Shown piece after piece: positions 7,733 to 25,895 of a stretch of DNA of 64,000 nucleotides; positions within the stretch are counted from its first letter, which is position 1; every line of letters begins with the position of its first letter. Source of the stretch: Oligoflexus sp. GTDB taxonomy: Bacteria > Bdellovibrionota_B > Oligoflexia > Oligoflexales > Oligoflexaceae. The stretch is taken from positions 1 through 64,000 of the forward strand of contig JACMOC010000050.1 in the NCBI GenBank assembly GCA_014378195.1. The letters run 5' to 3'. The notes below the pieces were generated by a model that did not search any database, was not told the DNA's origin, and worked only from the letters and a program-made list of their open reading frames with translations. Both the position numbers and the translations under genes were made by a program.

Positions 7733-7882
7733 ATGGCTAGTAATAGTAATCAGGGCCGCGGTCAAGACGGAAAAAAAGTCGATAAAAACATTCCAGCACA
7801 TAGCGAAACCGAAGGCGGTCGCCATGCGCCAGCAGATCCGCACAAAGCGCCTGCGGACAAAGGACAGAAACGCAGCAAATAG
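7733..7882 (+). CDS. Small hydrophilic basic protein (49 aa)
   Basis: An ATG at 7733 preceded by AAGGA about 11 bases upstream opens a 49-codon frame ending in TAG. The product starts MASNSNQGRGQDGKK and is rich in Lys, Gly, His, Asp and Pro, with no hydrophobic residues able to form a core. It is probably disordered. The composition is reminiscent of small stress- or desiccation-induced proteins or nucleoid-associated tails, but no family is recognised. The coherent composition over the whole frame argues that it is real. It is isolated between ompA and the biosynthetic operon. Confidence 0.5.
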   Translation: MASNSNQGRGQDGKKVDKNIPAHSETEGGRHAPADPHKAPADKGQKRSK

Positions 7883-8033: not shown

Positions 8034-8079
8034 AAACATCAGCGGCCTCGCAACGTGAGCTGCGAGGCCGCTGATGTTT
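8034..8079. terminator. Strong Rho-independent terminator of the biosynthetic operon
   Basis: A perfect 19-bp stem (8034-8052 with 8061-8079) with an 8-base loop; the outer pairs form A/T runs on both sides. It lies 15 bases after the stop of the last gene of the minus-strand operon and would also stop transcription arriving from the plus strand. Confidence 0.9.
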
Positions 8080-8093
8080 GTGCAGTTCTGTGA

Positions 8094-8327
8094 TTACTTT
8101 GATTTTGAAATGATCATCTCGATGAGATTGGCAACCGTTTCGATCTTAGGAAGCTCGTCCTGAGAAATAATGATATCAAAAGTATCCTGAAGCTCGATGA
8201 CCAACTCTATGAGCAGAAATGATTCTGCTACGAGCGTTTTGAGAGGATACTCATCTTTGATCGCATCGATATTGAGGTGGAGGACCTTAGCCATTTCCTG
8301 GCGAATTTTTTCAGCAGTGGCTTTCAT
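8094..8327 (-). CDS. Acyl carrier protein (first of two in the cluster)
   Basis: A 77-residue acidic helical protein of the ACP/PCP family. It begins MKATAEKIRQEM after AAGGAG, which places the start at 8327 rather than at an in-frame ATG at 8351. The phosphopantetheine-attachment Ser lies in LVAESFLLIELVIELQ, where ES replaces the usual DS before the long helix II. FDIIISQDEL and ETVANLIEMI match helices II-III of ACPs. Encoded last in the nine-gene operon together with its own phosphopantetheinyl transferase, so it is probably a pathway-specific carrier, not the housekeeping AcpP. Confidence 0.85.
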   Translation of the reverse strand: MKATAEKIRQEMAKVLHLNIDAIKDEYPLKTLVAESFLLIELVIELQDTFDIIISQDELPKIETVANLIEMIISKSK

Positions 8328-8344
8328 GTTATGCTCCTTTGTAG

Positions 8345-8926
8345 TTACCAAGCTTTGAATGCTTTTTTGTCCATAAGTTCTTTAAGATGCTCGCCGTGCT
8401 CTTTGAGAGTCTTTTCATAAACGGCTTGATCGGCCTCGTGATACTTTTTAAGAGTCGAAATCACGACCTCTTTCGTGAATTTCGTTTCCATTTCTTTAAG
8501 GGACTGCGTAATCCACTCTATGTGCCATTTTTCGTCTTCCATGATGAGGTCGAGCGTCGCAGCCACATAGGGATTAATGTCCTTGAGGCCACGATGGACT
8601 CCATACTGGCCTATCACACGACGCTCAAATACTTGCGTGATTGCGAGGACTTCCATCATATTGGTAGGGAGACCCACGGCCGCCACATACTGATCTTGGT
8701 AGCTCTCCATCACGTTGATAGGATCCATATTCAGATCACCTAAACATTTGGTCCAAAGCCAGGCATGCTGGCTCTCGTCTGCAAAGTGTTTGGTGAGGTC
8801 ATATTGAATCTTTTTGTCTTTCATGTTTTTGGCGAGGCGGCCGAAAAACTGCGCGCCATTGATCTCTGAGACGCGGTAGAAACTGAGTAACCAGCGTTCG
8901 CTTTCCGTAATCTTCATCGCTTCCAT
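8345..8926 (-). CDS. Ferritin-like diiron protein (putative oxygenase/oxidase)
   Basis: A 193-residue all-helical protein beginning MEAMKITESERW after CAGGAG (an upstream ATG at 8941 is possible but lacks a site). Metal-ligand-type residues occur in the order of a four-helix diiron bundle: E in EINGAQFF, E..H in ADESQHAWLW, E in QVFERRV, and E..H in EDEKWHIEW. These ExxH pairs are characteristic of ferritin-like oxidases and oxygenases such as MiaE-type and aldehyde-deformylating enzymes. The substrate is unknown; the context between the PPTase and ACP genes suggests action on a carrier-bound or released acyl group. Second diiron enzyme of the operon. Confidence 0.75.
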   Translation of the reverse strand: MEAMKITESERWLLSFYRVSEINGAQFFGRLAKNMKDKKIQYDLTKHFADESQHAWLWTKCLGDLNMDPINVMESYQDQYVAAVGLPTNMMEVLAITQVFERRVIGQYGVHRGLKDINPYVAATLDLIMEDEKWHIEWITQSLKEMETKFTKEVVISTLKKYHEADQAVYEKTLKEHGEHLKELMDKKAFKAW

Positions 8927-8941
8927 TGTAGGCTCCTGCAT

Positions 8942-9562
8942 TTAAATTGACCTTAGGGCTATGCTCACAAAACCTTGGGAGTGTCGGTACGATCTATAGG
9001 ACCATTGTCGAGATCGTTTGCGGCAGATGGCCTGTCCCGCGTGGCCATCATCACTGAGAATTTCATACGCCGTGAGAGATTGCGTTTGATTCTCGGCGTC
9101 GGCTTTAAAAAGGGCTTCTTTTATCGTCCAAAACCTCAACGGATCACTTTCTGTCCGCATAAAAGTCTGATCGATCTCACTCAAATAGAACCGCAAAGCC
9201 TTGGCACTAATAAGCCTATCGTCCTCGAGGTCGATGCCAAGACCTAGCAGAGGCGTGGGGCTTCCGACAGCAACTGCACGTTCGTTGGTATGCGTAAGCG
9301 AGAGGGCGTTATCCGGGAAAGACAAAAGAGAACTGTCGCCGGAGCGCCCGATTCGAGGCAGAAGTTCGTGGAGCGCGGCGCGGCCTAAACACCAGGAAGG
9401 TCTCCGAACCTCACTTAAAGTTTCATATTGAGTCCTTTCACAGGCCGTGAGGCACACGAGCGAAACGGGCAGACGAGTAAAGGCAACGTGAAGAGTCTGG
9501 GCGAAAGTATCGCTTAATAGGGCTTCAAACGCCTTGCTGTCGTCTAAATTCATAGCCCGCAT
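8942..9562 (-). CDS. 4'-phosphopantetheinyl transferase (Sfp-type)
   Basis: Transfers phosphopantetheine from CoA to the Ser of carrier proteins. The 206-residue product has the Sfp/AcpT signature: LGRAALHELL, SLTHTNERAVAVG, the Mg-binding LGIDLEDD and FWTIKEALFKAD. The ATG at 9562 overlaps the stop of the upstream reductase gene (TGATG), favouring this start over an in-frame ATG at 9577. Its presence in the operon implies that the two ACPs encoded here need dedicated activation. Confidence 0.85.
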   Translation of the reverse strand: MRAMNLDDSKAFEALLSDTFAQTLHVAFTRLPVSLVCLTACERTQYETLSEVRRPSWCLGRAALHELLPRIGRSGDSSLLSFPDNALSLTHTNERAVAVGSPTPLLGLGIDLEDDRLISAKALRFYLSEIDQTFMRTESDPLRFWTIKEALFKADAENQTQSLTAYEILSDDGHAGQAICRKRSRQWSYRSYRHSQGFVSIALRSI

Positions 9563-10662
9563 CAATTCAACTTCCATTTCTGTTCGATCATTTTGTTGAT
9601 CAGTTGGGGGAGTACTTCGTTAAATCGGGCAGCTTCATAGTCAGGCATCACGCTCCGCAGCCGAGTATTTTCGAAATTCTTTTTTATGAAGAGCTGACGG
9701 GCGAAAGGAACCATGCTTCCGACCGCATCTTTAAGGACAGCACCACCAAAACCCGATATTCCATCGGCTAAAATGGCGAAAGACTCCAAATCCACGAGGA
9801 GCGGTTTTTGAATGCCTCGTTTTTTGAACGATTCGTCGCTTAAAAAGGCCTTGTAGCCTATGTCCATGAGACTTTCGACCGTGAGACTCTCGGAGGCTTC
9901 ATGACAGACATGATAAACTTGGTGTCGATCGTTACTATCAAGCGCAGCCAGGATTCCTTTTTCGACAAAATCTCCACACACGAGATAGATAGGAACCGCA
10001 GCATCACCTGGTACAGTAGAAATAAGGCCATAATAGAGGAGTTTCAAGGTATTGTGGACGGCGTTCATCTGGGAATATTCGCCGGTTTTGTTGTCTGCTA
10101 AAACAGTCGCCACTCGCATGATCGTCCAGGGTAGATCCGAAAAATCCGTGTTGAGCGCATGTTCGGTTTCCCATTTGGATCGTTCGTAGTGATTGACGAA
10201 GCCTTCAGGACGGGCGAGGATTTCTTCAGGAACCAGGCCTTCAGTCATGCCTGCAGCATAAACAGTGCTGATGTAGGCGAATGTTTTGAGTTGCTTTGAC
10301 CTTCGGCCGAGGTGAAAAAGGGAGATGCTGGCGTCGCGATTTTCACGATCCGCGACGTCCGCTTCGACGTTGAACTTGGTCGTGGCGGCTGAGTGGATGA
10401 TGATCGTGCAATCGACGGGAAGGCGTTTAACATCCTCTGGCTTCGCGATATCACACGCGATCACTTCGATAGACCCCTGGCCAAGTTTGGCAAGCAATTC
10501 GTCACGACGTTGTGCGAGATGTTCGTCGTCTTTGGCCCTCACAGGAAGGACCAGTCTTGCACCGGTCCGTAGCAAAGCTTTCGCGAGACGAAAACCCACG
10601 TAGCCTGTGGCTCCGGTAATGAGAACTTTTTCGTTTGATCGAATCGTGTCTATGTTTGGCAT
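9562..10662 (-). CDS. Thioester-reductase-like extended SDR
   Basis: A 366-residue NAD(P)-binding protein. The ATG at 10662 follows GAAGGA; a TTG at 10695 would start inside the preceding gene's end. It shows the Rossmann motif GATGYVGFRLAKALL, HSAATTKFN, FAYISTVYAAG and the catalytic YERSK. This is the pattern of the NAD_binding_4 group, which includes the reductase domains of carboxylic acid reductases, NRPS release domains and fatty acyl-CoA reductases. It would reduce an acyl-thioester, here probably acyl-ACP, to aldehyde or alcohol. The C-terminal ~120 residues are less typical. It is flanked by an ACP gene and the PPTase gene. Confidence 0.75.
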   Translation of the reverse strand: MPNIDTIRSNEKVLITGATGYVGFRLAKALLRTGARLVLPVRAKDDEHLAQRRDELLAKLGQGSIEVIACDIAKPEDVKRLPVDCTIIIHSAATTKFNVEADVADRENRDASISLFHLGRRSKQLKTFAYISTVYAAGMTEGLVPEEILARPEGFVNHYERSKWETEHALNTDFSDLPWTIMRVATVLADNKTGEYSQMNAVHNTLKLLYYGLISTVPGDAAVPIYLVCGDFVEKGILAALDSNDRHQVYHVCHEASESLTVESLMDIGYKAFLSDESFKKRGIQKPLLVDLESFAILADGISGFGGAVLKDAVGSMVPFARQLFIKKNFENTRLRSVMPDYEAARFNEVLPQLINKMIEQKWKLN

Positions 10663-10691
10663 TGCGTTAGTCTTTCCTTCGAGAGGCCACT

Positions 10692-10934
10692 TCAAGCGAA
10701 AAAATTCTGGTAAATGGTATCGATCGTCGCAAAAGACTGAGGCGTGAGTGTCTCGGGATCAAATTCATTAGCCCCGATGCTTTCCATAAAAAGAATGAAA
10801 TCGAGCATTTGGACAGATGTAATGAGCTTTTGTGTGATGAGCGGTGTTGAATCCGACAAAGCCGATAGATCAGTCGTTGGATTTTTGCCAATAATCCACT
10901 TTTTCAATTTTGCTTTAACGTCCTGGTCGCTCAT
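10692..10934 (-). CDS. Acyl carrier protein-like protein (second of two)
   Basis: An 80-residue helical protein. The start ATG at 10934 overlaps the stop of the diiron-oxygenase gene (ATGA), so the long in-frame upstream extension is rejected. The candidate phosphopantetheine Ser is in LITSVQMLDFILFMES, with TS replacing the canonical DS, followed by the usual hydrophobic helix II and ESIGANEFDPETL. TPQSFATIDTIYQ matches the helix III region. It is divergent from the other ACP of the operon, which suggests a different partner enzyme. Confidence 0.7.
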   Translation of the reverse strand: MSDQDVKAKLKKWIIGKNPTTDLSALSDSTPLITQKLITSVQMLDFILFMESIGANEFDPETLTPQSFATIDTIYQNFFA

Positions 10935-11791
10935 AGGTCTGGCTCCTCGGTAATGATACCCGTGTCGAGAAAAAATCGTATACATTTGGATGACGCTTCG
11001 CGTCGGAGGTTCTTTTGAGCCTCACAATTCCAGGCTTCGGTCATCATTTCATAGGAGTCTGACAGGCCGGCGTCTCGATACATTTCAGGATTGTAGTATT
11101 CTTTCCAGGTAGCAACCATGTAGCTCAGGAGGTAGATGCTGATCCCCTGCAAGGTCTCAGTAGACCAGACGGTTTTTTTCTCTTCAAAAAGTTCAAGGAC
11201 GAGTTGGCGGCCGAAGGTGAGGTGGCGCGCCTCATCCTGATGATGCAAAAGGTTGATTTTTCGAGCAACCGGATGAAGATTTTCGTCGGCAGCTTGAAGT
11301 ATATTAAAGTAGTCAGCGATTTCCTCAAAAATCACGACCTTGGCGAAGAACAGAAAGTCCTCTTCGCCTTCGACGTAAGTCCTTGGGAAACTTATTTTTT
11401 TGTCTTTATAAACCTTGCCGCTGTAGCTCATGCAAAAGCGCCCAAAAAACTGCATGTGCTTATTTTCTTCATCCAGAAAATGATGAAGATAAGGGAGCAG
11501 GCGGGCCTGACCCTTGGCGTAAAGTCTTTTGTTAAGGCCTTCCACGAGTGGTTTTTCGCCGTTGATGTTCAAGCTGTAAAAATTTACGGCTTCAAAAAAG
11601 CTCAGGCGGCGCCGTGTTTGTTCATTGAGAGACGTCTCAAATGATGTTCCCGCTATCGTCATAAGTTTGGGCGATGTGAACCAGGCAGAGCTTGGCTCCA
11701 CTGATTCGGGCCATTCGATTGTATCAACAGGAGCCTTGTGTATTTTTGCCGATACCTGGCTGAGCCGCTGCGTAACGTTTTTGAGTGACAT
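10931..11791 (-). CDS. AurF-type diiron N-oxygenase family protein
   Basis: A 286-residue protein matching the AurF (p-aminobenzoate N-oxygenase) diiron family. An FFEAVNFYSLNINGEKPLVEG helix is followed by ligand helices FLDEENKHMQFFGRFC, IFEEIADYFN and HHQDEARHLTFGRQLV. The last, DEARHxxFG, is diagnostic. Known members oxidise aryl or alkyl amines to hydroxylamine or nitro groups (AurF, CmlI) or hydroxylate carrier-bound substrates (CmlA is a different fold). In this operon an amine on a carrier-bound acyl or amino-acyl group is a reasonable but unproven substrate. The gene is translationally coupled to the following ACP gene. Confidence 0.8.
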   Translation of the reverse strand: MSLKNVTQRLSQVSAKIHKAPVDTIEWPESVEPSSAWFTSPKLMTIAGTSFETSLNEQTRRRLSFFEAVNFYSLNINGEKPLVEGLNKRLYAKGQARLLPYLHHFLDEENKHMQFFGRFCMSYSGKVYKDKKISFPRTYVEGEEDFLFFAKVVIFEEIADYFNILQAADENLHPVARKINLLHHQDEARHLTFGRQLVLELFEEKKTVWSTETLQGISIYLLSYMVATWKEYYNPEMYRDAGLSDSYEMMTEAWNCEAQKNLRREASSKCIRFFLDTGIITEEPDL

Positions 11792-11800
11792 AATACGTTC

Positions 11801-12763
11801 CTATACCTTTTCTATGATTACGGCTTGCCAGTTGAGGCCGTAGCCCGCCATGCATAGAAGAATTTTGTCGCCGCTTTTGAGGCGTTCATCCTGCTCGAGG
11901 GCTACGAGATTAACGATATTATCCGAGGAGATGATATGCCCGACTGTTGAAAGACTTGGAGCATAAACACGGTCAAATGGAATGCCGAGTATGCGCGAGA
12001 GAATCTGCCATGCTTTCATGTTGGTATTCTGAGGAACGACCCAATTTAAAGCGGATGCAGTGAGTCCGGCATTCGACAAAGCAGACTGGATTACCTTCCA
12101 AGTATAGTTGAAGTACGTTCCAACAGTTTCTTCATCGTTTGCACGAGCCAGAGCTCCATTGGTGATGGCGGCTGTTGAAAGGATGCGAAACCCGGCTGGC
12201 TTTCGTGAAAGAACAAAAGCGGACGCACCGTCAGCGATCAGGTTGAAAGCCTGTTCGTAGAGCGCGCCTTCGGGAAACCGATCCGCACTTACGCAGAGGA
12301 CTTCCCGGAGGGAAGGCTCGGCGAGAAAAAGTCCGCGGGCAATCCGAATTGATCCCAGCACGCTTGTGCATGCCTGTTGATTCAGGCCTATTGCTGAGGC
12401 CTGCTGCAATCCAAAATGAGATTGCAAGTGGGAAACAGGATAATCGAGGAGATGCTTGACATCGCGTGTCTCTAGAAAATCGTCCCAAAGGCCCATGTTG
12501 CCGTTGAGTGTCAGGCATGTGGAATAAACGATTGTGTCGACTTCGCTCAAGTGCTCCTTGATGGGTTCGACGGCCCGTACGGCCAGATCGTAAGCATGGG
12601 TGCCGGGCGCGGCGATCCAGTGTTGTTTGAAACCTGCTTCAAGAAACGCCTGAAGGTCAGTGATCGTGCGATCGTCACGAACACTATCTTCAATGGAGAC
12701 GGCATGGTCACCCAGGGCATAACTCGGATAATTCAAATAAACTTCGGTCATAACGATCCCCAT
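11801..12763 (-). CDS. KASIII-like 3-oxoacyl-ACP synthase with altered triad
   Basis: A 320-residue thiolase-fold protein related to FabH. The nucleophile Cys132 is in NQQACTSVLGSIRIA, and the C-terminal half ends MAGYGLNWQAVIIE like FabH-type enzymes. The usual His of PHQAN is replaced: the motif reads VVPQNTN (residues ~243-249). The GN of the Asn motif is replaced by GHIISSDN (~275-282), giving a His at the Asn position. Such rearranged triads occur among acyltransferase-type KASIII relatives. It may therefore form an ester, amide or C-C bond with a non-standard acyl acceptor rather than start fatty-acid synthesis. ATG at 12763, or at 12751. Confidence 0.75.
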   Translation of the reverse strand: MGIVMTEVYLNYPSYALGDHAVSIEDSVRDDRTITDLQAFLEAGFKQHWIAAPGTHAYDLAVRAVEPIKEHLSEVDTIVYSTCLTLNGNMGLWDDFLETRDVKHLLDYPVSHLQSHFGLQQASAIGLNQQACTSVLGSIRIARGLFLAEPSLREVLCVSADRFPEGALYEQAFNLIADGASAFVLSRKPAGFRILSTAAITNGALARANDEETVGTYFNYTWKVIQSALSNAGLTASALNWVVPQNTNMKAWQILSRILGIPFDRVYAPSLSTVGHIISSDNIVNLVALEQDERLKSGDKILLCMAGYGLNWQAVIIEKV

Positions 12764-12766
12764 CCA

Positions 12767-13330
12767 TCAAAACTTTGGAAAAAATCGGCCTGTTGTTTTG
12801 ATGTAAGGCACGTATTCTGCGCCGAGCTCTGAGGCCGACAGTTTACCTTCTTCTTTTTTTGCGGTCTGATTTTTCGCGACATATCCGTAGACCAGGATAG
12901 CAATCGTTGCAAAAGACGGGGCAAGGCAAACGCCACCGAGTAGGCTTAAGAGAAAGCTGGTGTAAAAAGGGTGACGAATATATTTGTATGCTCCCCAGGT
13001 TACGATAGTCCGAGGCGCGTCGTTGTCTTGGTGCCAAAGGGCTAACGGAATTCGGTGGGTACCGAGAGTCATTGTCATCAAACCGACTGAAGCCATAAAC
13101 AGGATTGCACTGAAACCTTGGAGAACTAGATAAGCTGTGGATTGATCGTTAATCGATATGGGGTTGTGTCCCGTAAAACTTAAAATACAGGCGAGCCCAC
13201 TGAGGAAGTAAGGAGCTCCGGTAAGGATCCATTTGAGGTTGTAGGTCCCGTCCTGTCTAAAGAATATTTTCGGAAGAGCAGCAATGAGTATAAAACAGAA
13301 CAGCGCATTGATCAGTGCGGTACTTTGCAT
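12767..13330 (-). CDS. ICMT/PEMT-like integral membrane methyltransferase
   Basis: A 187-residue protein with about five hydrophobic segments. Its C-terminal half has WGAYKYIRHPFYTSFLLSLLGG and a terminal EYVPYIKTTGRFFPKF. The RHPxY and EE...Y..Y..T.RF.P pattern is that of isoprenylcysteine carboxyl methyltransferase and related bacterial phospholipid/NnrU-type methyltransferases, which use S-adenosylmethionine at the membrane. In this operon it could methyl-esterify or O-methylate the lipid product. It lies between the ligase and KASIII genes with short gaps. Confidence 0.7.
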   Translation of the reverse strand: MQSTALINALFCFILIAALPKIFFRQDGTYNLKWILTGAPYFLSGLACILSFTGHNPISINDQSTAYLVLQGFSAILFMASVGLMTMTLGTHRIPLALWHQDNDAPRTIVTWGAYKYIRHPFYTSFLLSLLGGVCLAPSFATIAILVYGYVAKNQTAKKEEGKLSASELGAEYVPYIKTTGRFFPKF

Positions 13331-13360
13331 GGGATGTCCTCGTGTTCGTGTTCGATGAGC

Positions 13361-15061
13361 TTATACAAAAGAGCCGGCTGTGAGCATGCTCTTGAGTTGT
13401 GACGTCTTAACTTTGTGCGTTGAGGTTCTTGGTAGATTCCCAACCAGAATTAGAACGCGCGCCGGATGTTTGTACTGCGCAGTTCCTTTAAGCAAGACAC
13501 GTGCATCAGTATGTATCGCGCTTCGCATACCTTCTAAATCGTCACCATATCGGAGTCTTGTGTCAGGTGAGGGCACGGCAACTAAAACAACTTCTTCCCA
13601 GTCCCCTGACGAATGCGAAGTTACTGCAAACTCACTGGTCAGCTTGAGATCAGCGAGGTCTTGCTCAACTTCCTCAGGAAACACCTTTTTTCCACCGCCG
13701 AGAACAATAATATTTCTCGAACGACCCGTAATGAAGAGATAGCCATCCTTGTCCAGATAGCCCTTGTCACCCGTATGGAGCCATCCGTCATCGTCAATAA
13801 CAGAGCCTGTTGCGCCGGGATCGTCTTTGTATCCTAACATCAATTGTGGGCCTTTTGCGATTATGTCGCCGATGCCGCGTTCATCCGGATTGAGTATCCG
13901 GATTTCGGTATCAACAAGTGCCTGTCCGCAACTGCCGCGTCGGTCGCCTTCAAGAGAATTCAAGGTCAACACAGGGCTTGATTCGGAAAGCCCGTACCCT
14001 TGTATGACCGGAACGCCTATTCTGTCAAAGAATTCATGGATGTCGGGCGGTAGAGCCGCTCCGCCCGAGCCGAAATACTGGATACTGCCGCCAAGTTTTT
14101 TGCGAAAGGGCATTAACTTTGCGCGCCAACTCTTGGGCATAAAAAATGCCAGGGCTAACAGAAGTGAAGTGATCATGCGTTTGGATCTCGGCAGTTGGTT
14201 GATTTTTAGTTCGATACTTCTCTTCATGGCTTTAAAAAACAACGGCACGGCGACCAAGCGCGTGATTTTCAGTTTTTCCAGGAGAGCGATGATTTCGTGG
14301 GGCATCAGAGTATTGGCATAAGTAACAGTAGAGCCTACGTAAAGAGGGGCGAGAGTACCCGCGGCCAACTCGAATAGGTGGTTTATCGGAAGTACCGATA
14401 GGCTCTGATCGTAAAAGCTGGCATTCATTCGCTCCGCAATCGAATGGGCCTGATAGAGCAGACTCCTCGCCGATATGACGATCATTCGACTCACGCCGCT
14501 CGTGCCCGAACCAAAAACATTAAGAAAAGGCCGATCAAAATCGAGATCGTAGACCTGATCAGCTTGGTTAATAGGGCTGTGCCTATGTGAATCAACCCAG
14601 GTTTCCATCGCCATGATCGAAACGAGCGATTCGAATGAAGCAGATCGATCCTCCTGCTTTTTACTTACAATAAGGTGTTTGGATTGACTGCGAGTGAGCA
14701 GAGACTGAAGTTCGGTATCCGTTAAATGCGTATCAAGAGCAATTATCTCTATGCCTGCGAGAAATCCCGCGGCCAGCACTATCGTGAATTCCGGTCTTGA
14801 TTCGGACAGTATAGCAATCTGAAGTGGTTTCGGTTTCATAGTGATGAGTTCGTGAGCCAACGACTGGGATGCAGACATGATGTTGCCAAAGGTGTAGTAG
14901 CGAATATTGCCGCCTTCGGAAATTCCAAGCGCATTCTTACTATGGTTAAGTTTCCAAAGAGCCAGGAAGGGTGCCACACGTCCGTCACTCGATTTCATCG
15001 AGACTATGTGGTGCGGGTCGTTCTCCACCCGGACCGGATTTAATCTTAAGTTGTTTGGCAT
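13361..15061 (-). CDS. AMP-forming acyl/aryl ligase (ANL superfamily)
   Basis: A 566-residue adenylate-forming enzyme. ATG at 15061 follows CAGGAGATTTCG. Motifs appear in order: a degenerate P-loop NVFGSGTSGVSRM (canonical TSGTTGxPK, with the Lys missing), IQYFGSGGAAL, GYGLSESSPV, GWLHTGDKGYLDKDGY and FITGRSRNIIVLGGG-KKVFPEEVE, ending with LPRTSTHKVKTSQL (A10 Lys). It probably activates a carboxylic acid and loads it on CoA or an ACP. The unusual P-loop may mean altered catalysis or a transfer-only role. It is the first gene of the minus-strand operon. Confidence 0.75.
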   Translation of the reverse strand: MPNNLRLNPVRVENDPHHIVSMKSSDGRVAPFLALWKLNHSKNALGISEGGNIRYYTFGNIMSASQSLAHELITMKPKPLQIAILSESRPEFTIVLAAGFLAGIEIIALDTHLTDTELQSLLTRSQSKHLIVSKKQEDRSASFESLVSIMAMETWVDSHRHSPINQADQVYDLDFDRPFLNVFGSGTSGVSRMIVISARSLLYQAHSIAERMNASFYDQSLSVLPINHLFELAAGTLAPLYVGSTVTYANTLMPHEIIALLEKLKITRLVAVPLFFKAMKRSIELKINQLPRSKRMITSLLLALAFFMPKSWRAKLMPFRKKLGGSIQYFGSGGAALPPDIHEFFDRIGVPVIQGYGLSESSPVLTLNSLEGDRRGSCGQALVDTEIRILNPDERGIGDIIAKGPQLMLGYKDDPGATGSVIDDDGWLHTGDKGYLDKDGYLFITGRSRNIIVLGGGKKVFPEEVEQDLADLKLTSEFAVTSHSSGDWEEVVLVAVPSPDTRLRYGDDLEGMRSAIHTDARVLLKGTAQYKHPARVLILVGNLPRTSTHKVKTSQLKSMLTAGSFV

Positions 15062-15221
15062 CGAAATCTCCTGATTCGTTCTTATCGCTGCAACTGCTAT
15101 ACCCCTTAACGCATTGACCAAAATGTAATTATTGAGAAGTATTCAAAATTCTCGCCAAACGAAATTCACTCGCAGATTTCCAATGATTTTGAGATGATAT
15201 GAAGATGTGGGGGAATAATTT
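15062..15221. promoter_or_regulatory. Divergent promoter region of the biosynthetic/export locus
   Basis: 160 bases separate the start codons of the ligase and adenylation-domain genes, so promoters for both operons must lie here. An inverted repeat GAGAA (15134-15138)/TTCTC (15149-15153) with a 10-base AT-rich spacer lies near the middle and is a candidate operator. TATAGC on the minus strand (about 15096-15101) and TATGAA on the plus strand (about 15198) are possible -10 boxes. Both are weak matches. Confidence 0.4.
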
Positions 15222-16802
15222 TTGCTGCAAAAAAATCTGCTTGTGCCGTTTCTTGACGTCTTTGATCAAACGGTGCGTTCGTTTCCTAATGCACCTGCTG
15301 TCGAATTTGTAGACGGTTGCCTAGACTACCAACAGCTCATGGCCTTGGCTTTGCAGGTAGCGGGATATCTCAAAGTTCATGCAACGGACTCCCCCTATAT
15401 CGGACTGTTCTCATCGAGAAGTCTAATGACATATGCCGGAGCATTAGGAATTCTGCTGGCAGGTAAGGCTTACGTACCTCTCAATCCTGGTTTCCCTTCC
15501 GAACGTCTCAACGTAATTATCAATAAAGCCGGCCTCACGACCGTGCTTGTGGGCAAAGAAACAGAAAAAGTATGGGGTATTCTCAATTCCCATCCATCTG
15601 TTTCGCATCTCCTGTTCGACTCAACGGCCGCGCAAGGTCTATTTGCGAATGACAATGGCAAGCACCTTTCAGCCATAGAAACATTCGAGCCGCTTGCCGA
15701 AAATCGTTGTTCTATTCAACCGAGTGACCCCGTATACCTCCTTTTCACTTCGGGTACGACCGGGCAACCAAAAGGCATCGCGATTCCCCATCAAAACGTG
15801 AATGAATATGTGGCTTGGGCCCGCTCGGAATTACCGCTGACGCATCAGGATCGCTGTTCCCAGATCTTTGAGATGAGTTTCGATTTAAGCGTACATGATC
15901 TTTTGGTGACGCTTTGCCAAGGGGCTTGTCTGGTCATTCCTCGCGATGGGGATTTGCTTTTTCCGTCGCAGTACATAACAAAGAGGAGACTCACGGCTTG
16001 GTTTAGTGTCCCTAGCATGGGTTCTCAGATGAAACAGCTAGGTCTTCTCAAACCAGGTGCCTACCCGAAACTGCGTCAGGTGCTTTTCTGTGGTGAAGCC
16101 TTGCCAATCGCTGTAGCAGATGCGTGGAGCAAGGCCTCGCCGGACGCGCGCATCCTGAATTTATATGGGCCTACGGAGGCGACGATCGCGATGGCGTTGT
16201 ATGAATATAGGGGTGATAAGCAATGGAGCTCGGGAGTGGTGCCGATAGGTAAGGCCTTCCCGCATATGGAAGCTGAGGTGTTTGATACTGAGGGAAAAGT
16301 CCAACTAAAGCCAGGACACGAGGGCGAACTTTGGTTGAGTGGGCCGCAACTGGCGTCTGGCTATTTTCTCGATCCTGTTACGAGCAAAGCTGCTTTTGTG
16401 CAGCTGAACGGCAAAGACTGGTACCGTACTGGCGATCTCGCAATGCGAGATGCTCAAGGTGATCTGCTGTTTCTGGGACGCATCGATCAGCAGATTAAAA
16501 TCCGCGGCTATAGAGTCGAAATAGGTGAGATTGAGCACGTTCTGCGAAAATCGAGCGGACGTGATGTATGGGTCGTCGTACTTTATCAAACCATTCGTGA
16601 TGAGCAGCTCATTGCGGTCCATGAAAATTTCACGGAACCTCTGGATAACGTAAAATGCCTTACGGACTGTGAGGCTTCCCTGCCAACGTATATGATTCCG
16701 TCAGCGATACTCAGCATTCCTTCGATTCCAAGAAATGCGAATGGCAAGCTTGATCGCAAAGCTGTCTTAGAACTTGTAAAAAATCACTTTGTGACAGAAT
16801 GA
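15222..16802 (+). CDS. Free-standing amino-acid adenylation domain (DltA/NRPS-like)
   Basis: A 526-residue adenylation enzyme starting at TTG 15222 behind a GGGGGAAT motif. All core motifs are present: LLFTSGTTGQPKG, YGPTEAT, WYRTGDLA, KIRGYRVEIGEIE and the final NGKLDRKA Lys. MSFDLSVHDLL around A4 keeps the Asp that binds the alpha-amino group in amino-acid-specific domains, as in DltA. It should activate an amino acid (or D-Ala-like substrate) as AMP ester and load it onto a carrier protein. No carrier is fused, so one of the two ACP-like proteins of the divergent operon is the obvious partner. First gene of the plus operon leading into an ABC exporter. Confidence 0.8.
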   Translation: MLQKNLLVPFLDVFDQTVRSFPNAPAVEFVDGCLDYQQLMALALQVAGYLKVHATDSPYIGLFSSRSLMTYAGALGILLAGKAYVPLNPGFPSERLNVIINKAGLTTVLVGKETEKVWGILNSHPSVSHLLFDSTAAQGLFANDNGKHLSAIETFEPLAENRCSIQPSDPVYLLFTSGTTGQPKGIAIPHQNVNEYVAWARSELPLTHQDRCSQIFEMSFDLSVHDLLVTLCQGACLVIPRDGDLLFPSQYITKRRLTAWFSVPSMGSQMKQLGLLKPGAYPKLRQVLFCGEALPIAVADAWSKASPDARILNLYGPTEATIAMALYEYRGDKQWSSGVVPIGKAFPHMEAEVFDTEGKVQLKPGHEGELWLSGPQLASGYFLDPVTSKAAFVQLNGKDWYRTGDLAMRDAQGDLLFLGRIDQQIKIRGYRVEIGEIEHVLRKSSGRDVWVVVLYQTIRDEQLIAVHENFTEPLDNVKCLTDCEASLPTYMIPSAILSIPSIPRNANGKLDRKAVLELVKNHFVTE

Positions 16803-16832
16803 GAAAACAACGAAAATACACAGGGGAAGCCT

Positions 16833-17510
16833 ATGAGTGATCTTGCCATTGAAGCCACCGATGTCTGGAAAAGTTATAAACTGGGTGACACGAAGGTTGA
16901 TGCCCTTCGAGGTTTGTCACTTCAGCTTAAATATGGAGAGCTCGCAGCTCTGGTGGGCGCGTCTGGCTCCGGAAAAAGCACACTGCTCAACCTCCTGGGG
17001 GCGCTCGACAAGCCGGATCGCGGAAGCATAGCCATCAATAATAGACAGGTCGAAGCGATGTCTGACGAAGAGCTGGGCCAGTTGCGGAATCGCAAGATCG
17101 GCTTTATCTTCCAGGCTTTCCATCTGATACCTGTCCTAAAAACGCGCGAAAACGTCGCGCTTCCACTGCAGCTTTTTGATGAATTAAGCAGCAAAGACCG
17201 CAAAATGCGTGTGGAATCGGCGCTCGAAAAGGTGGGTCTTTTGGATTTTGCAGATTCGATGCCGACGCGTCTTTCGGGTGGGCAACGCCAGCGTGTAGCA
17301 ATCGCTCGCGCTTTAGTCACGGAGCCCGATTTGATACTTGCCGACGAGCCGACGGCCAACCTCGATTCTAAAACAGCGCATGCGATCATTGATTTGCTGG
17401 AGGAACTGAACTCCAAACAAAAGGCGAGTTTTCTGATTTCTAGTCACGATGAAAAACTGATTGGACGCGTGAAACGCGTTTTGCGAATTCAGGATGGTAC
17501 CATCGTATGA
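16833..17510 (+). CDS. LolD/MacB-type ABC transporter ATPase
   Basis: A 225-residue ATPase: Walker A GASGSGKST, Q-loop FIFQAFHLIP, signature LSGGQRQRVAIARAL, Walker B LILADEPTANLD and the H-loop SSHD. This is the LolD/MacB/FtsE-type subfamily that drives type VII (mechanotransmission) ABC systems. AGGGGAAG precedes the ATG. Its stop overlaps the start of the first permease gene by 4 bp. Probably powers export, or extraction from the inner membrane, of the product made by the divergent operon. Confidence 0.9.
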   Translation: MSDLAIEATDVWKSYKLGDTKVDALRGLSLQLKYGELAALVGASGSGKSTLLNLLGALDKPDRGSIAINNRQVEAMSDEELGQLRNRKIGFIFQAFHLIPVLKTRENVALPLQLFDELSSKDRKMRVESALEKVGLLDFADSMPTRLSGGQRQRVAIARALVTEPDLILADEPTANLDSKTAHAIIDLLEELNSKQKASFLISSHDEKLIGRVKRVLRIQDGTIV

Positions 17511-18838
17511 AACGATTCTTCTGGCTCCTGCGGCTCGCAAGCCTCAATCTGCTGCGAAACAGCAAACGCAATCTCATCACTGGTATCGCCCTGGCGAGTT
17601 CGTTTTCCGGTATTTTGCTCTTCACGGGCTACGTGGTTTGGGTGGAGAAGTATCTCCGGGCGAATACAGTTTTCGTCAACCAGTCTGGGCATTTACTGAT
17701 CTCGCGCCCCAACGGACTTGAGGATCAACTGACCAAACCAAGGACTGCACTCCTCAAAAAAGACGAACAGGAAAAGATTGAAGCGATGCTGAAAGGCGAC
17801 GCCGATGTTTTAGCCGTGGGAAAAGGCCTCCAGAGCATGATGATGATCATCAAGGACTGTCGAAGTCGAGGCGTAATCGCCATTGGCCGAGACGAAGGGA
17901 TCGATCGATTGAGCCTCGGCCAGCCGGATGTTTTGAAATGGGATTATGAACTCTTGAAACCTGAGCAAATCCCCGTGCTGGCAAAATTTCGGCAAGTCTC
18001 CCCGAAAGAAGCTGCGGTTTTCCCATCGCCCATTCTTCAGAAATTTATTGATCGTAAAACTAGCAGCAAACAGGCCGGATGTGAAGAGAGTGCAAACGGA
18101 TCTCTGCAGCTGCTGGGTCGCACCACAACAGGGGAAGTCGCGGCAACAGACGGACGGGCCCTGGGTACGCAGAGCACTGGCCTCGCGATCCTGGACGAAC
18201 GGGTGATTTATATGCCGGTGAAAGATCTACAAACATTCATTGAGACAGATTCGGTTGGATACTATACGGTCTATGTAAAATCGCTTTTGGCTTTGCCCTC
18301 GGTATGGAAACGTTTGCATGAAGACGTGAAGGCATCCGGTCTTGACTTACAGATTCAACCGTTTTTCTCCGAAAACGTTGGGCTCTACTATATTGGTTCA
18401 GTGGGTTTCCTGGGGACCATTGCCGCATTTTTTGTGCTTTTGGTATCGTCAGTTGTCGGCTTGAGCCTATTCAGTCTCTTCAGCATGTCTGTGACGGAAA
18501 GAAGCATGGAGATAGGGCTTTTGGCAGCTCTTGGGTTCCCTGCGAAAATCGTGATTTGGCTTTTTGAGATTGAGGCCGTTCTGCTGTGTCTTTTGAGTCT
18601 TGGGACGGGTTTACTCGTGGCTATCGGTCTTGGCGACTTGATATTCAAGCAGAATATTCGTTTTTCTCCACCTGGTATCGCTGGGGACACACACTTTACG
18701 ATAGCTTGGGAACCTTGGGTCATGGTCGTGATAGGGCTGACGTTTCTGCTTGTTTCGTATGTTTCGATTCGCATAGTGACTGTGCTTAAACTCAAAAGAT
18801 CGGCCCTGAGCCTCCTTCAGGATGCCGGAACCTTATAA
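17507..18838 (+). CDS. FtsX/LolC-like ABC permease
   Basis: A 443-residue permease with the MacB/LolCE layout: one N-terminal membrane helix (ITGIALASSFSGILLFTGYVV), a ~280-residue periplasmic domain, then three C-terminal helices. The cytoplasmic coupling segment RSMEIGLLAALGFP matches the FtsX-family E-G-LRALG motif. With the next gene it would form a LolC/LolE-like heterodimer. Translationally coupled to the ATPase gene. Confidence 0.85.
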   Translation: MKRFFWLLRLASLNLLRNSKRNLITGIALASSFSGILLFTGYVVWVEKYLRANTVFVNQSGHLLISRPNGLEDQLTKPRTALLKKDEQEKIEAMLKGDADVLAVGKGLQSMMMIIKDCRSRGVIAIGRDEGIDRLSLGQPDVLKWDYELLKPEQIPVLAKFRQVSPKEAAVFPSPILQKFIDRKTSSKQAGCEESANGSLQLLGRTTTGEVAATDGRALGTQSTGLAILDERVIYMPVKDLQTFIETDSVGYYTVYVKSLLALPSVWKRLHEDVKASGLDLQIQPFFSENVGLYYIGSVGFLGTIAAFFVLLVSSVVGLSLFSLFSMSVTERSMEIGLLAALGFPAKIVIWLFEIEAVLLCLLSLGTGLLVAIGLGDLIFKQNIRFSPPGIAGDTHFTIAWEPWVMVVIGLTFLLVSYVSIRIVTVLKLKRSALSLLQDAGTL

Positions 18839-18858
18839 ATTCGCAAGGAATTGATTTT

Positions 18859-20166
18859 ATGAAAAATCCTATGACCGACACCATCTCGCGTCTCGCCATA
18901 GCCAACAGTCTTGCGCATTGGCGATACAGCCTATCGACGATATTGATCATGGGCATCGGACTTTTGTCGATATGGATGTTCCGCGGCTATATGCTTAAGG
19001 TCGGCGATCTCTATCGGGATCACTTTACCGTTCGATCGATGTTCGGCGAGATACTAATCGAGCCCGAGAACGCAGACAATGATGACAAGATCGGTGGAAT
19101 TACTGGCAATCAGCAGCAAAGTCTGCAGACTTTTTTCGCTCAGGATGCCGATTCCATCGAGGCTGTGGTTCGGTTTCTAAAGGTCGACGGGCAGATCACC
19201 TTCGGAGCCGAAAATTCTTTGTTTGACGGTCTAGCGTACGATATTACCTCAGGCGAAAAAATCAGAAGTGAAAAGTGGTCCTGGAATGCGGTCGCAGGTC
19301 GACCACTCAAAGCGCCCGGAGAGATCGTCCTCGGCCGGGCCATGGCTCGGCTTTTGGCTTGTGAATTTGACAGCGAGCACTATTTGGAACCATCCGATAA
19401 TGGTCACGCTTATATTGCCAAAGAACGACCATTTACCTGCGGTTCTAACGAGGGACAGGTGTCTGTGGTCACGGATAAGGGGCAGATTCGATCACAGTCG
19501 ATGAAAGTTGTGGGTTTGATGGATGTAGGCTTTCGTGATTTGGATCGAACCTGGATGATGATGGATATTCAAGATGGTCAACTTCTTTTAAAAACCAACG
19601 AGTTGTCCTGGATCAGTCTGAAAGCGCGAGGTTCTAGTGTCAAGCTTCTCGATGATGTGCGTGTTTACCTTGCCGAGCATCGTTTGCCGCTCGTCGCGAC
19701 GCCGTGGGATAAGCATCGCTACACTGACCTCTATCGCCGCACTATGGGTCTGCTACGAGTGTTTGAAGTTTTTGTTTTGAGCATTTTGTCCGGTATTGTC
19801 GGCATTTCAGTTTTCAATCTGATGTCTAAGATAGTCAGTGAGCGACGCCGAGAAATCGGGCTTTTGAGAAGTGTTGGATTCAATTCAAGGAAAATTCTCC
19901 GCCTATTTTTGACGGAATCCATTTTCACTTCGATTCTTGGTTTGTCGATCGGCGCGGCCGCTTCTCTGGGTTTCGCGAATGTCGCAAATCGTTTGGGAAT
20001 ACTCTACAAGGCAGGCATTCTCAGCGAACCTGTACCGTTTGCAATAAATCCAGAGCTATCGCTTTTCGTAAGCACGGCACTGATCCTAGGCGGAGTCAGT
20101 ATCATAGCGAGCCTGACGGCCGTTCGGAAGGCGCTTAGAAAAACAGTTATTGAATGCTTGATGTAG
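18859..20166 (+). CDS. FtsX/LolE-like ABC permease
   Basis: A 435-residue permease of the same architecture as its upstream partner: an N-terminal helix near residues 20-40, a large periplasmic domain and three C-terminal helices. The coupling segment RRREIGLLRSVGF is canonical for the family. AAGGAATT precedes the ATG. Last gene of the plus-strand operon; no terminator hairpin is obvious immediately after it. Confidence 0.85.
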   Translation: MKNPMTDTISRLAIANSLAHWRYSLSTILIMGIGLLSIWMFRGYMLKVGDLYRDHFTVRSMFGEILIEPENADNDDKIGGITGNQQQSLQTFFAQDADSIEAVVRFLKVDGQITFGAENSLFDGLAYDITSGEKIRSEKWSWNAVAGRPLKAPGEIVLGRAMARLLACEFDSEHYLEPSDNGHAYIAKERPFTCGSNEGQVSVVTDKGQIRSQSMKVVGLMDVGFRDLDRTWMMMDIQDGQLLLKTNELSWISLKARGSSVKLLDDVRVYLAEHRLPLVATPWDKHRYTDLYRRTMGLLRVFEVFVLSILSGIVGISVFNLMSKIVSERRREIGLLRSVGFNSRKILRLFLTESIFTSILGLSIGAAASLGFANVANRLGILYKAGILSEPVPFAINPELSLFVSTALILGGVSIIASLTAVRKALRKTVIECLM

Positions 20167-23183: not shown

Positions 23184-23325
23184 GCGTTTGTTTTCGTTTG
23201 ATGTCTTAAACACGATCAATCAAGGTGAATACTGTGTGTTGGCGCTTCTCTGACTTGCATATCGCCTTTACATCGGCCTCAGAACTGTGGCAATTTCGGG
23301 CCAGATTGTACCTATGAGGCGCCGC

Positions 23326-24492
23326 ATGAATACTACAATGACTGATAAGTTCGAACTCCCTGCCCTATCTCGACTGGCGATGGGATCACCCTCGAAGGAA
23401 ATCAAGCAGTTCAAGACTTGGGTGCCATCCGGTCTAACCGTTCGCCTGGGGCTTGTTCTAAGACGTTTACTCCTCACGCTTGCCGATCGAATCGTTCCCG
23501 TTAGCCTGCCGCTTTTTGAGCGTTCAACGGGTCTGATGGACACTGTGATACTTTCGATCGTGTCAAAACACGAGATAGCAGATCATTTGGAGCAAAGGCC
23601 CCAGACGGCAGCTGACTTGGCCCGCATCACCGGAACCGATGCGGATGCGATGCATAGAATCCTTCGGGCGGCAGCGAGCCGCGGAGTATTTCAGCTTGAT
23701 CAAGACGGTCTATTCCACAACAACCGTCTCTCCAAAGCCCTTCTCAAAGGCAACGCCACTGCGAACAGAGAGTGGTCTCAATACTTTGGATCCCAGTCCA
23801 ATATGCTTGCCTGGATGAACCTCCCCCGGGCTGTGGTCGAAGGTCAGCCTAGCTTCGATCACGTTTTTGGAATGAATGTCTGGGAATGGTTTGAGCACCA
23901 TAACGACGAACAGGAAATGTTTGCGCATAGCATGATGGGTGTGACAGCGCTCCAGGCACCTGTGATAGCGCGCCTCTACCCATTCGCCGAAGTGAAATCG
24001 ATCTGCGATGTCGGTGGGGGACGCGGAACATTGATGTCCGAATTGCTCACTCGCCACCAACACCTCAAAGGCATACTTTTTGATGCGGCTGGTGTGTTGA
24101 AATCAGCTGAAGAGCTTCTTAAAGCGCGGGGAGTTGCCGAACGGGTTGAAAAGGTCGAAGGTAGTTTTTTGATAAGTATTCCAAATGCCGACGCCTATCT
24201 TTTCAAAAACATCTTTCACGATTGGAATGATGAATTCTGCTCGAGTATTCTTCAGACTCTCAAAAAGTCGATAAAAGCCGGGCAAAAAGTGTTGATCATA
24301 GAGCAGCTCGTCGAGAAAAATAGCATCCAGGGCATAGGTCCAGCCTCTGACGTACAGATGATGGTTGCCTGTTCAGGAGGTCGAGAACGTTCTTTGGCTG
24401 AAATACAGGGCTTGCTCATGACAAATGGCTTTCAAGTTGGAAGAACCTTTTTGCATCCTTTGATAAGCGTTGTTGAAGGAACCTTCCACTAA
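23326..24492 (+). CDS. O-methyltransferase (Methyltransf_2, small-molecule type)
   Basis: A 388-residue enzyme. The ATG at 23326 has GAGG six bases before it; further in-frame starts exist upstream. The N-terminal ~100-220 region contains a winged-helix dimerisation domain (PQTAADLARITGTDADAMHRILRAAA, in parts). It is followed by the SAM motif ICDVGGGRGTL, the catalytic NIFHDWND with the conserved His-Asp, and GRERSLAEIQGLL. It is the class that methylates hydroxyls of aromatic natural products and carotenoids. It lies 3 kb from the exporter operon, separated by other genes, so a role in that pathway is only possible. Substrate unknown. Confidence 0.8.
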   Translation: MNTTMTDKFELPALSRLAMGSPSKEIKQFKTWVPSGLTVRLGLVLRRLLLTLADRIVPVSLPLFERSTGLMDTVILSIVSKHEIADHLEQRPQTAADLARITGTDADAMHRILRAAASRGVFQLDQDGLFHNNRLSKALLKGNATANREWSQYFGSQSNMLAWMNLPRAVVEGQPSFDHVFGMNVWEWFEHHNDEQEMFAHSMMGVTALQAPVIARLYPFAEVKSICDVGGGRGTLMSELLTRHQHLKGILFDAAGVLKSAEELLKARGVAERVEKVEGSFLISIPNADAYLFKNIFHDWNDEFCSSILQTLKKSIKAGQKVLIIEQLVEKNSIQGIGPASDVQMMVACSGGRERSLAEIQGLLMTNGFQVGRTFLHPLISVVEGTFH

Positions 24493-24555: not shown

Positions 24556-25895
24556 AGGGGAATCTGTCCCCCTAACTTCCAAGGGACTTTGTCCCCTGTA
24601 GATATCGCCATACCGGGGATTTAGTTTAGCTGACTCTCTTAAGATAGCTCAATTGAGCCATTCGCCTGTTGGGCTGTTTGACCTCCTCTAGGCCCAGCTG
24701 GAGAATGCCGTAGCAGGCTCGGAGAGGTCCTGCAGTTGGCTCTACAATCACAATTTCTTTGTTAGCAATGGAGCCTTCCCAGATGCCTTTTAAGGCATAG
24801 AGTCGATTATCGAACATCACCGTATGATCTTTTCTTACCTTGCGAGGATATTTCATACAGAACACATCGTTCAGATTTATAGCTCGATCGAGCTCGCGAT
24901 AGCGACTTTCAGAATTTCTTGCCTCTACCGTATTTCTTATCTGCCAGTACTTTGGTATAAATGTTTTCTGAAGATATGTGTTGGCAGCTTCCATAGCCTT
25001 GATGCCTTCGATTCGAAGCTCAGGTATCAGGCGATCTTGGAATGTCTGCCACGTCCTCTCGATTCGGCCTTTGGCCTCAGGAGAATTTGCGTAAATTACG
25101 CGAATGCCCAACTCTTCACAGGCTCGGGTAAATTGAGAAAAATGCTGTCGCTTCATGCCACCGAACCATCCCGCGTGGTCAACATAAAGCGATTCTGGAA
25201 TTCCTCGAACTTCGATTATTCGCTGTAAAACGCCCTTACAGTTCAATGTATCTTCGCTTCTATAGAAGCCTGCAAATGGAATATCGCTGGTCGCGTCGTC
25301 AATCGCTGCGATGAGAACCCATTCATCTTGCCCATTCCATTTATGATGGGATCCATCCATTTGGAGCATTAGCCCCTCATTGCTTAGACGGTCGCGATAG
25401 ATTCGCTTTTTAGCGGGTCGCCGCCGCTTACGCTTGCCGATCCCGCTGCTTCTGCACCAGCTATGAAAAGTCGAATAACTAGCCCTAAGGTCGTGCTTGG
25501 CCACGAGAATTTGGTAGCAATGAGTCATGTTAAAGTCGTAGTAGACCTGACTCGCAAGCTTCAGAATCGCTGCCTTTACACTGTCGCCCACCTTGTTCAC
25601 AGGGCGAAGACCGCAGTTACCATGTTTGATACCTTCAACACCTTTAAGCTTAACCCTCTTTGATTTCCGTTGGACTGACTTCTCCGAAATGTCCAACAAC
25701 GTTGCTGCCTCTTTCCTTGAAACCCTGCCTGCTCTGTAATCTTCGATAATCCGAACCAAGTACTGCTCATTCTTCGTCATTACAATAGCCCCATCCATGA
25801 AACCACTCCTTATTCAGACAACTGCCTGGAATTAAGGAGAGATTCTAACCTAGGGGACAGAATCGCTTGGAAATTAGGAGGGGACAGAATCCCTT
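24556..25895 (-). mobile_element. ISNCY-like insertion sequence
   Basis: A single transposase gene is bounded by imperfect terminal inverted repeats of about 46 bp. The left end (24556-24601) and the reverse complement of the right end (25849-25895) share the core GGGA-TCTGTCCCC followed by CCTAA-TTCCAAG and a second GGGA-TTTGTCCCC/GCGATTCTGTCCCC copy. Each end thus carries two TGTCCCC-containing boxes, possibly transposase-binding sites. I could not see an unambiguous target duplication. One copy only in this window. Confidence 0.75.
24626..25798 (-). CDS. ISNCY-family transposase (DDE)
   Basis: A 390-residue transposase. An N-terminal helix-turn-helix (RVSRKEAATLLDISEKSVQRK) is followed by a second DNA-binding segment and an integrase-type catalytic core. 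The core has the Asp in LQMDGSHHKW, the Asp in LYVDHAGWFG and the Glu in SPEAKGRIERTWQTFQDRL. This DGSxHxW...D...SPxAKGRxER pattern is typical of the ISNCY group. AAGGAG precedes the ATG. The reading frame is full-length and appears intact. Confidence 0.85.
   Translation of the reverse strand: MDGAIVMTKNEQYLVRIIEDYRAGRVSRKEAATLLDISEKSVQRKSKRVKLKGVEGIKHGNCGLRPVNKVGDSVKAAILKLASQVYYDFNMTHCYQILVAKHDLRASYSTFHSWCRSSGIGKRKRRRPAKKRIYRDRLSNEGLMLQMDGSHHKWNGQDEWVLIAAIDDATSDIPFAGFYRSEDTLNCKGVLQRIIEVRGIPESLYVDHAGWFGGMKRQHFSQFTRACEELGIRVIYANSPEAKGRIERTWQTFQDRLIPELRIEGIKAMEAANTYLQKTFIPKYWQIRNTVEARNSESRYRELDRAINLNDVFCMKYPRKVRKDHTVMFDNRLYALKGIWEGSIANKEIVIVEPTAGPLRACYGILQLGLEEVKQPNRRMAQLSYLKRVS

Follow-up and report, generated by a model that had tools for sequence, protein, structure and literature searches.

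A divergent carrier-protein locus in Oligoflexus that may encode synthesis of an N-oxygenated acyl-amino-acid lipid

Organization and conservation of the locus

We examined a 64,000-nt stretch of contig JACMOC010000050.1 (the window) from an Oligoflexus sp. assembly (GCA_014378195.1; 4.66 Mb, 85 contigs, 82% complete), in which two divergent operons encode a set of carrier-protein enzymes. Transcribed from 15121 down to 8094, the nine-gene minus-strand operon encodes an acyl-AMP ligase, an ICMT-like methyltransferase, a KASIII-like protein, an AurF-family diiron oxygenase, a small acyl carrier protein (ACP1), a thioester reductase, a phosphopantetheinyl transferase (PPTase), a ferritin-like diiron protein and a second carrier (ACP2), with intergenic gaps of -16 to +30 bp, as for one operon. 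The plus-strand operon (15222-20166) encodes a free-standing amino-acid adenylation (A) domain, an ABC ATPase and two FtsX-type permeases, and the two operon starts are ~100 bp apart. Domains were called by Pfam and NCBIfam profile searches of the locus proteins. Together with alignments and motifs, these matches located every gene that a preliminary description of this DNA had listed (Table 1).

Table 1. Features of the locus, in window coordinates
Feature	Position	Strand	Supporting evidence
Inverted repeat, possible terminator after the minus-strand operon	8034..8079		Exact 19-bp stem, arms 8034-8052 and 8061-8079, 100% complementary, 8-nt loop
ACP2, canonical acyl carrier protein	8094..8351	-	PF00550 (1.2e-7); Ser in LVAESFLL; ATG start possibly at 8327
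Ferritin-like diiron protein	8345..8941	-	E26, E56xxH59, E106, E137xxH140; Rubrerythrin match below threshold only
Sfp-type PPTase	8942..9577	-	PF01648; GIDLE and FWTIKEALFK motifs
Stand-alone thioester reductase (short-chain dehydrogenase/reductase)	9562..10695	-	PF07993 (3.6e-31); GATGYVG and YERSK motifs
ACP1, small carrier overlapping the AurF gene	10692..~10937	-	No Pfam match; alignment to known carriers, phosphopantetheine Ser kept
AurF-family diiron oxygenase	10931..11791	-	PF11583 (2.2e-30)
KASIII-like predicted acyltransferase	11801..12763	-	PF08541 and PF08545; Cys132-His276-Asp281
ICMT/PEMT-type integral membrane methyltransferase	12767..13330	-	PF04140 (8.3e-7)
Acyl-AMP-forming ligase, long-chain acyl type	13361..15121	-	PF00501 (8.7e-47); ATG start possibly at 15061
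Free-standing amino-acid adenylation enzyme	15222..16802	+	TIGR01733, 333.7 bits vs 317.4 cut-off; pocket DLHFLCLIAK
LolD-type ABC ATPase	16833..17510	+	PF00005; best match TIGR02211 (LolD), 251 bits, below the 308-bit cut-off
FtsX/LolC-E-type permease 1	17507..18838	+	PF02687
FtsX/LolC-E-type permease 2	18859..20166	+	PF02687; best match lolCE, 56 bits, well below cut-off

All nine genes of the minus-strand operon recur in the same order on a 6.4-kb contig (JANQPW010000206.1) of a Silvanigrellales bacterium metagenome-assembled genome, which belongs to the same class but another order. The orthologues share 60% (KASIII-like), 56% (ferritin-like), 53% (ICMT-like), 51% (AurF), 44% (thioester reductase), 38% (ligase), 36% (ACP1) and 32% (PPTase) identity, and ACP2, at the corresponding place, is truncated to a partial frame where the contig stops (LVIESFVLVEMIIELQ vs LVAESFLLIELVIELQ). 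Given this recurrence in identical order, the nine-gene operon is a real, sparsely distributed unit and not a chance arrangement. The preliminary description had named separation of these genes in related genomes as evidence against it; for the nine-gene operon we instead found synteny in another order.

Searches of genomes for the whole gene set were confined to the phylum, and close relatives of the KASIII-like, AurF and ferritin-like proteins were found in no other genome among the 56-58 searched, which comprised members of the phylum and selected relatives. An alignment scan for the KASIII-like protein, covering one genome per species for 84,980 species, returned only the Silvanigrellales contig, with the limit that it used two strict peptide patterns that distant copies may escape. 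The ferritin-like protein gave no match in a plasmid search, and neither it nor AurF had relatives among viral contigs.

The stem beyond the end of the minus-strand operon had been described as a perfect 19-bp terminator. The stem itself is exact, but it is a plausible rather than an established terminator, since its T tract on the minus strand is short (~4 T) and the structure was absent from the results of the terminator scan.

Predicted amino-acid loading and the AurF oxygenase

The AurF protein passes PF11583 (106 bits vs a 29.6-bit cut-off), and its diiron ligands (E109, H112, E156/E157, H183, E187 and H190) are invariant in nine sequences. Its gene overlaps that of ACP1, which is related to carriers adjoining AurF in Tistrella and Streptomyces (E 2e-8 and 1e-5), with an invariant phosphopantetheine Ser. 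Plasmid-encoded relatives of AurF are 31-38% identical to it (E ~1e-36 or better), and we inspected six of their loci (E<=1e-36), from Tistrella, two Streptomyces, Agrobacterium vitis, Nostoc and Azospirillum. An amino-acid loader is present in all six: four are class-II aminoacyl-tRNA synthetase (aaRS)-like proteins, called by annotation or by a PF00587 match that was in some cases below cut-off, one is an adenylation-thiolation-thioesterase (A-T-TE) nonribosomal peptide synthetase (NRPS), and one is a free A domain, in Azospirillum, where the locus includes the A domain, a carrier, a methyltransferase and AurF. The Nostoc A-T-TE protein was also considered as a relative of the thioester reductase, and the two were unrelated on comparison.

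Such aaRS-like enzymes load amino acids on carrier proteins (Mocibob et al. 2010, as cited in PMC2922099), and the AurF homologue HamC oxidises a valine tethered on the A-T-reductase NRPS of the fragin pathway (PMC11659414). Given the amino-acid loader in six of six related loci, and the kinship of ACP1 with the carriers found there, the substrate of AurF is probably a carrier-bound amino acid, by analogy with HamC.

For the outcome of the AurF reaction, N-oxygenation is the best precedent. Genes annotated as nitronate monooxygenase adjoin the AurF relatives in three of the six loci, suggesting nitro or nitronate chemistry. The same tethered amino acid could alternatively be modified on carbon, by hydroxylation, desaturation or halogenation, with the rest of the pathway as we propose below. 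The AurF fold does sit within the wider R2-like/ferritin-like diiron group, its nearest solved sequences are R2-like ligand-binding oxidases, and CylC, a dimetal halogenase, is distantly related (PMC8406957). However, for a tethered amino acid the nearest precedent within this family is the N-oxygenation by HamC (PMC11659414), which, along with the nitronate monooxygenase neighbours, makes carbon chemistry unlikely.

A separate AurF gene was observed in another genome (locus L031; genome G006, contig C78, 7320-16774), divergent from genes for PabB/TrpE-like and TrpG-like proteins, a DAHP synthase, an AMP ligase, a condensation-like protein and a thioester reductase, and together with a TenA-like protein. 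This cluster looks like an aminobenzoate N-oxygenation pathway.

The free-standing A domain of the window passes TIGR01733 and places Asp221 at the position of the alpha-amino-binding Asp235. Its pocket, read by alignment, is identical in the best A domain of the second operon-bearing genome, and that of the Azospirillum A domain near AurF is DLFFLCLIAK. A domains of this type (E<=1e-60) occur in only three of 56 genomes, among them both genomes with the operon (p ~0.002). The preliminary description had linked the A domain to the nine-gene operon, and this link gains support from the co-occurrence and from the Azospirillum carrier and AurF context. The A domain lies next to MMPL transporter and LolA-like genes in the second genome and next to the ABC transporter in the window, and this tie to lipid-type export genes in both genomes points to a role in lipid handling. 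The window's transporter is best termed LolCDE-like rather than LolCDE, as the equivalog thresholds were missed by the ATPase (Table 1) and, by a wide interval, by the permeases (lolCE, 56 and 24 bits vs 362 bits).

We also considered that the two operons might be unrelated neighbours, the A domain and ABC transporter serving some other pathway and the nine-gene operon receiving its amino or acyl group from elsewhere. Such an arrangement would suit the placement of the second-genome A domain on a different contig, beside different transporters, and the wide distribution of the transporter family. It fits poorly with the divergent adjacency of the operons, with the presence of an A domain of identical pocket in both operon-bearing genomes and with the same type of A domain near a carrier and AurF in Azospirillum, and we regard it as unlikely.

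Free-standing A domains with the pocket DL[HF]FLCLI[AC]K were seen across distant phyla (L029, 7073-8611; L066, 8977-10575; L067, 8971-10530; L060, 4614-6092; L061, 9486-11075), some of them adjoining carriers, citrate-synthase or ATP-grasp genes.

Predicted acyl transfer, release and tailoring

Condensing FabH enzymes use a catalytic Cys, His and Asn. At these positions both orthologues of the KASIII-like protein keep the Cys (Cys132) but have Gln245 in place of the His and His276 in place of the Asn, and the Cys-His-Asn triad required of a FabH-type condensing enzyme is lacking. Asp281 follows five residues past His276, the spacing of ChlB3, and both residues align on the His and Asp of ChlB3. 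The resulting triad, Cys132-His276-Asp281, is of the CerJ/ChlB3/AfcL type and is present in both orthologues. The acyltransferases CerJ and ChlB3 (Cys113-His296-Asp301) have the KASIII fold (PMC9573744), and in the assembly of AFC-BC11 peptidyl thioesters are carried by AfcL, whose triad is Cys/His/Asp (PMC12186527). The remaining KASIII-like proteins from carrier pathways in our comparison share the His-x4-Asp pattern, and one of them is without the Cys. By overall similarity the protein is no nearer to ChlB3 (E 4e-8) than to FabH (best 9e-16), and the placement among acyltransferases therefore depends on the triad.

With Cys-His-Asp replacing Cys-His-Asn, acyl transfer rather than condensation is probable for this enzyme, which would form an amide, ester or thioester and not a C-C bond; the condensing role assigned to it in the preliminary description thus gives way to a probable acyl transfer. 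We weighed this assignment against a Claisen-type reaction, in which the KASIII-like enzyme would join a fatty acyl group to the oxidised aminoacyl group to give a beta-keto lipid in place of an amide or ester. The alpha carbon of the oxidised aminoacyl group would be acidic if it were nitro, and a single KASIII-fold enzyme fed by two ligases and two carriers could serve such a reaction. NocG of the nocuolin pathway joins two acyl thioesters (PMC11837247), and DpsC carries out C-C chemistry with a Ser-His-His site (PMC9573744). Nevertheless, the loss of both the FabH His and Asn, and the acyltransferase triad in both orthologues, leave C-C bond formation quite unlikely.

KASIII-like genes were observed in several further clusters. 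The same Oligoflexus genome carries a second cluster (locus L055, contig C72, 1-10278) with two KASIII-like genes, two AMP ligases, a short-chain dehydrogenase/reductase and its own LolCDE-like ABC transporter, which resembles olefin or beta-lactone lipid clusters. Two other loci (L062, 9377-19339, in genome G006; L064, 7799-17677, in genome G005) combine several KASIII-like genes with genes for a GNAT protein, an ATP-grasp protein, two acyl-CoA dehydrogenases and an AMP ligase, and a similar gene set is found on a Burkholderia cenocepacia megaplasmid (L071). The KASIII-like plasmid match in Burkholderia cenocepacia was examined as a possible afc (AFC-BC11) cluster and set aside, as its gene set (several KASIII-like genes, a decarboxylase and a GNAT protein) looked different.

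The thioester reductase scores 109 bits against a 20-bit threshold for PF07993, with the Rossmann GxxGxxG and YxxxK motifs present, and 94.7 bits against TIGR01746, below the 213-bit cut-off. In the ferritin-like protein the diiron ligand set is complete and invariant relative to its 56% identical orthologue. Its AlphaFold2 model (predicted local distance difference test, pLDDT, 79) had 6jzu_B as top Foldseek match (E 5e-3, template modelling score 0.69), and the nearest folds are aldehyde-deformylating oxygenases, PaaC-like proteins and bacterioferritins, none of them significant. A search for the aldehyde-deformylating oxygenase family PF11266 found no match anywhere in the genome at E<=10; the control search recovered the family above cut-off in one of 14 control genomes.

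Aldehyde-deformylating oxygenase was the best fold match for the ferritin-like protein, yet this was non-significant and came without a PF11266 match, and we kept the assignment only as part of a different scheme, a fatty-aldehyde or hydrocarbon route. In that scheme the ligase, ACP2 and the thioester reductase would yield an aldehyde for conversion by the ferritin-like protein, through deformylation or otherwise, with AurF on a separate branch. An acyl-thioester reductase within the operon would suit this, as would the first-ranked Foldseek matches, which include 6jzu_B, co-crystallised with acyl-ACP reductase. However, the bacterioferritins and PaaC among the matches, the empty PF11266 search and the failure of the scheme to account for the A domain, the AurF-ACP1 unit and the KASIII-like enzyme make it very improbable.

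Three further features near the two operons were also noted. A lysine-rich short frame without identification (7733-7882 (+), MASNSNQGRGQDGKKVDKNIPAHSETEGGRHAPADPHKAPADKGQKRSK) lies just past the end of the minus-strand operon. A PF00891 O-methyltransferase gene (23287-24492 (+)), 3 kb downstream, could be part of the pathway or independent of it; a PF00891 methyltransferase is also present near the Tistrella AurF gene (locus L025, 17259-18260). An integrase-core transposase-like gene (24626-25798 (-)) is a possible sign of mobility.

A proposed pathway and its relation to known systems

The sequences show directly which genes are present, in what order and how well conserved, what their active-site residues are, and that AurF occurs together with a carrier and a loader of amino acids. 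From these observations we tentatively propose a condensation-domain-free carrier pathway to an N-oxygenated acyl-amino-acid lipid that is reductively released and exported, a reading we consider quite possible though short of probable. Each reaction, the amino acid involved, the sequence of the steps and the export are inferred from these observations. The PPTase would prime ACP1 and ACP2. The long-chain acyl ligase would activate a fatty acid, either onto ACP2 or straight onto an amine, and the free-standing A domain would place an amino acid on ACP1, where AurF would oxygenate the amine during tethering. Cys132 of the KASIII-like enzyme would hold the acyl group and transfer it to a nitrogen, oxygen or sulphur nucleophile, and the thioester reductase would then release either an aldehyde or an alcohol. 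Tailoring of the product may fall to the ferritin-like protein and the ICMT-like methyltransferase, and the LolCDE-like transporter would take the lipid from the inner membrane. The carrier-protein pathway of the preliminary description is supported, with two loading routes, one through the ligase and one through the A domain.

Several observations weigh against this proposal. The ligase motif GYGLSE is intact, but the P-loop, SGTSGVSR, is degenerate (it is canonical in the second genome), and the protein scores as an acyl-CoA ligase rather than a fatty acyl-AMP ligase (FAAL), with 193 bits for PRK06187, below cut-off. The A-domain pocket gave no assignable amino-acid code, and relatives of AurF with other chemistries are known. 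The AlphaFold2 model of the KASIII-like protein was set aside as unreliable (pLDDT 46), and the triad was read from the sequence. The second-genome A domain is on a contig other than that of the operon, with no visible divergent placement relative to it, and the operon contig ends before any transporter beside it could show. The LolCDE-like transporter type is common in the class and not operon-specific.

The locus is a compact syntenic pathway, not characterised before, in a little-studied bacterial group, and it pairs two separately known ideas, the oxygenation of an amine held on a carrier and acyl transfer in which a KASIII-fold enzyme replaces the C domain. If the proposal is true, N-oxygenated lipids gain a further biosynthetic route, and the link between AurF, carrier and loader would predict the type of substrate for many AurF proteins lacking an assigned function. 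A bolder reading, which we judge unlikely, is that the product is a bacterial membrane lipid or signalling lipid of a new class. In its synthesis an amino acid on a carrier would be N-oxygenated (to a hydroxylamine, nitrone, oxime or nitro group), acylated by a KASIII-fold acyltransferase, reductively released and then exported in the direction of the outer membrane by a LolCDE-like transporter dedicated to it.

In the libraries and literature searched we found no characterised cluster that has this gene set, as the preliminary description had anticipated. The closest likenesses are partial. AFC-BC11 biosynthesis (afc) in the Burkholderia cepacia complex (PMC12186527) similarly employs an acyl-AMP ligase, which in afc is a FAAL, a free A domain, a free carrier, a KASIII-like Cys-His-Asp acyltransferase, a methyltransferase and a diiron oxidase, and has no condensation domain, as none was found in the present locus; this likeness is one of predicted function, gene-level orthology aside. 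Only afc has a single carrier, a pyridoxal phosphate-dependent decarboxylase, a citrate synthase, an AlkB-type oxidase and release onto lysine, whereas the present locus has two carriers, AurF, the ferritin-like protein and the thioester reductase, and the decarboxylase and citrate synthase genes are absent from the genes of 8094-20166. In fragin/valdiazen biosynthesis (ham) of Burkholderia cenocepacia (PMC11659414), an AurF-type N-oxygenase works on an amino acid held on a carrier, as proposed here, and a reductive release domain and two opposed operons are further likenesses. The ham system differs in its fused A-T-reductase NRPS, the A domain, carrier and reductase being on separate genes here, and in having the haem-oxygenase-like protein HamA, the cupin HamB, a cyclase, a starter C domain and an aminotransferase; no Pfam domains of the HamA or HamB type were found in the locus.

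The plasmid clusters of Tistrella, Streptomyces and Agrobacterium vitis that combine AurF, a carrier and an aaRS-like protein have an AurF 33-38% identical to that of the window, an overlapping or adjacent ACP1-type carrier and, in three of the four, a PPTase, as in the present operon. Unlike it, they load the carrier by a class-II aaRS-like protein, carry a nitronate-monooxygenase gene in three of four cases and have no KASIII-like, thioester reductase or ICMT gene adjoining AurF. Nocuolin A biosynthesis (noc; PMC11837247) also involves fatty-acyl loading of an ACP, a ketosynthase that joins carrier-bound groups and an N- and O-containing lipid product, as proposed here, but uses a FAAL-ACP fusion and forms C-C bonds with NocG. 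By the proposed scheme the locus would combine AFC-BC11-like assembly with fragin-type chemistry. Since defining genes of both afc and ham are absent, it is a member of neither, and it appears to represent thiotemplated lipo-amino-acid biosynthesis in a new combination of known enzyme types.

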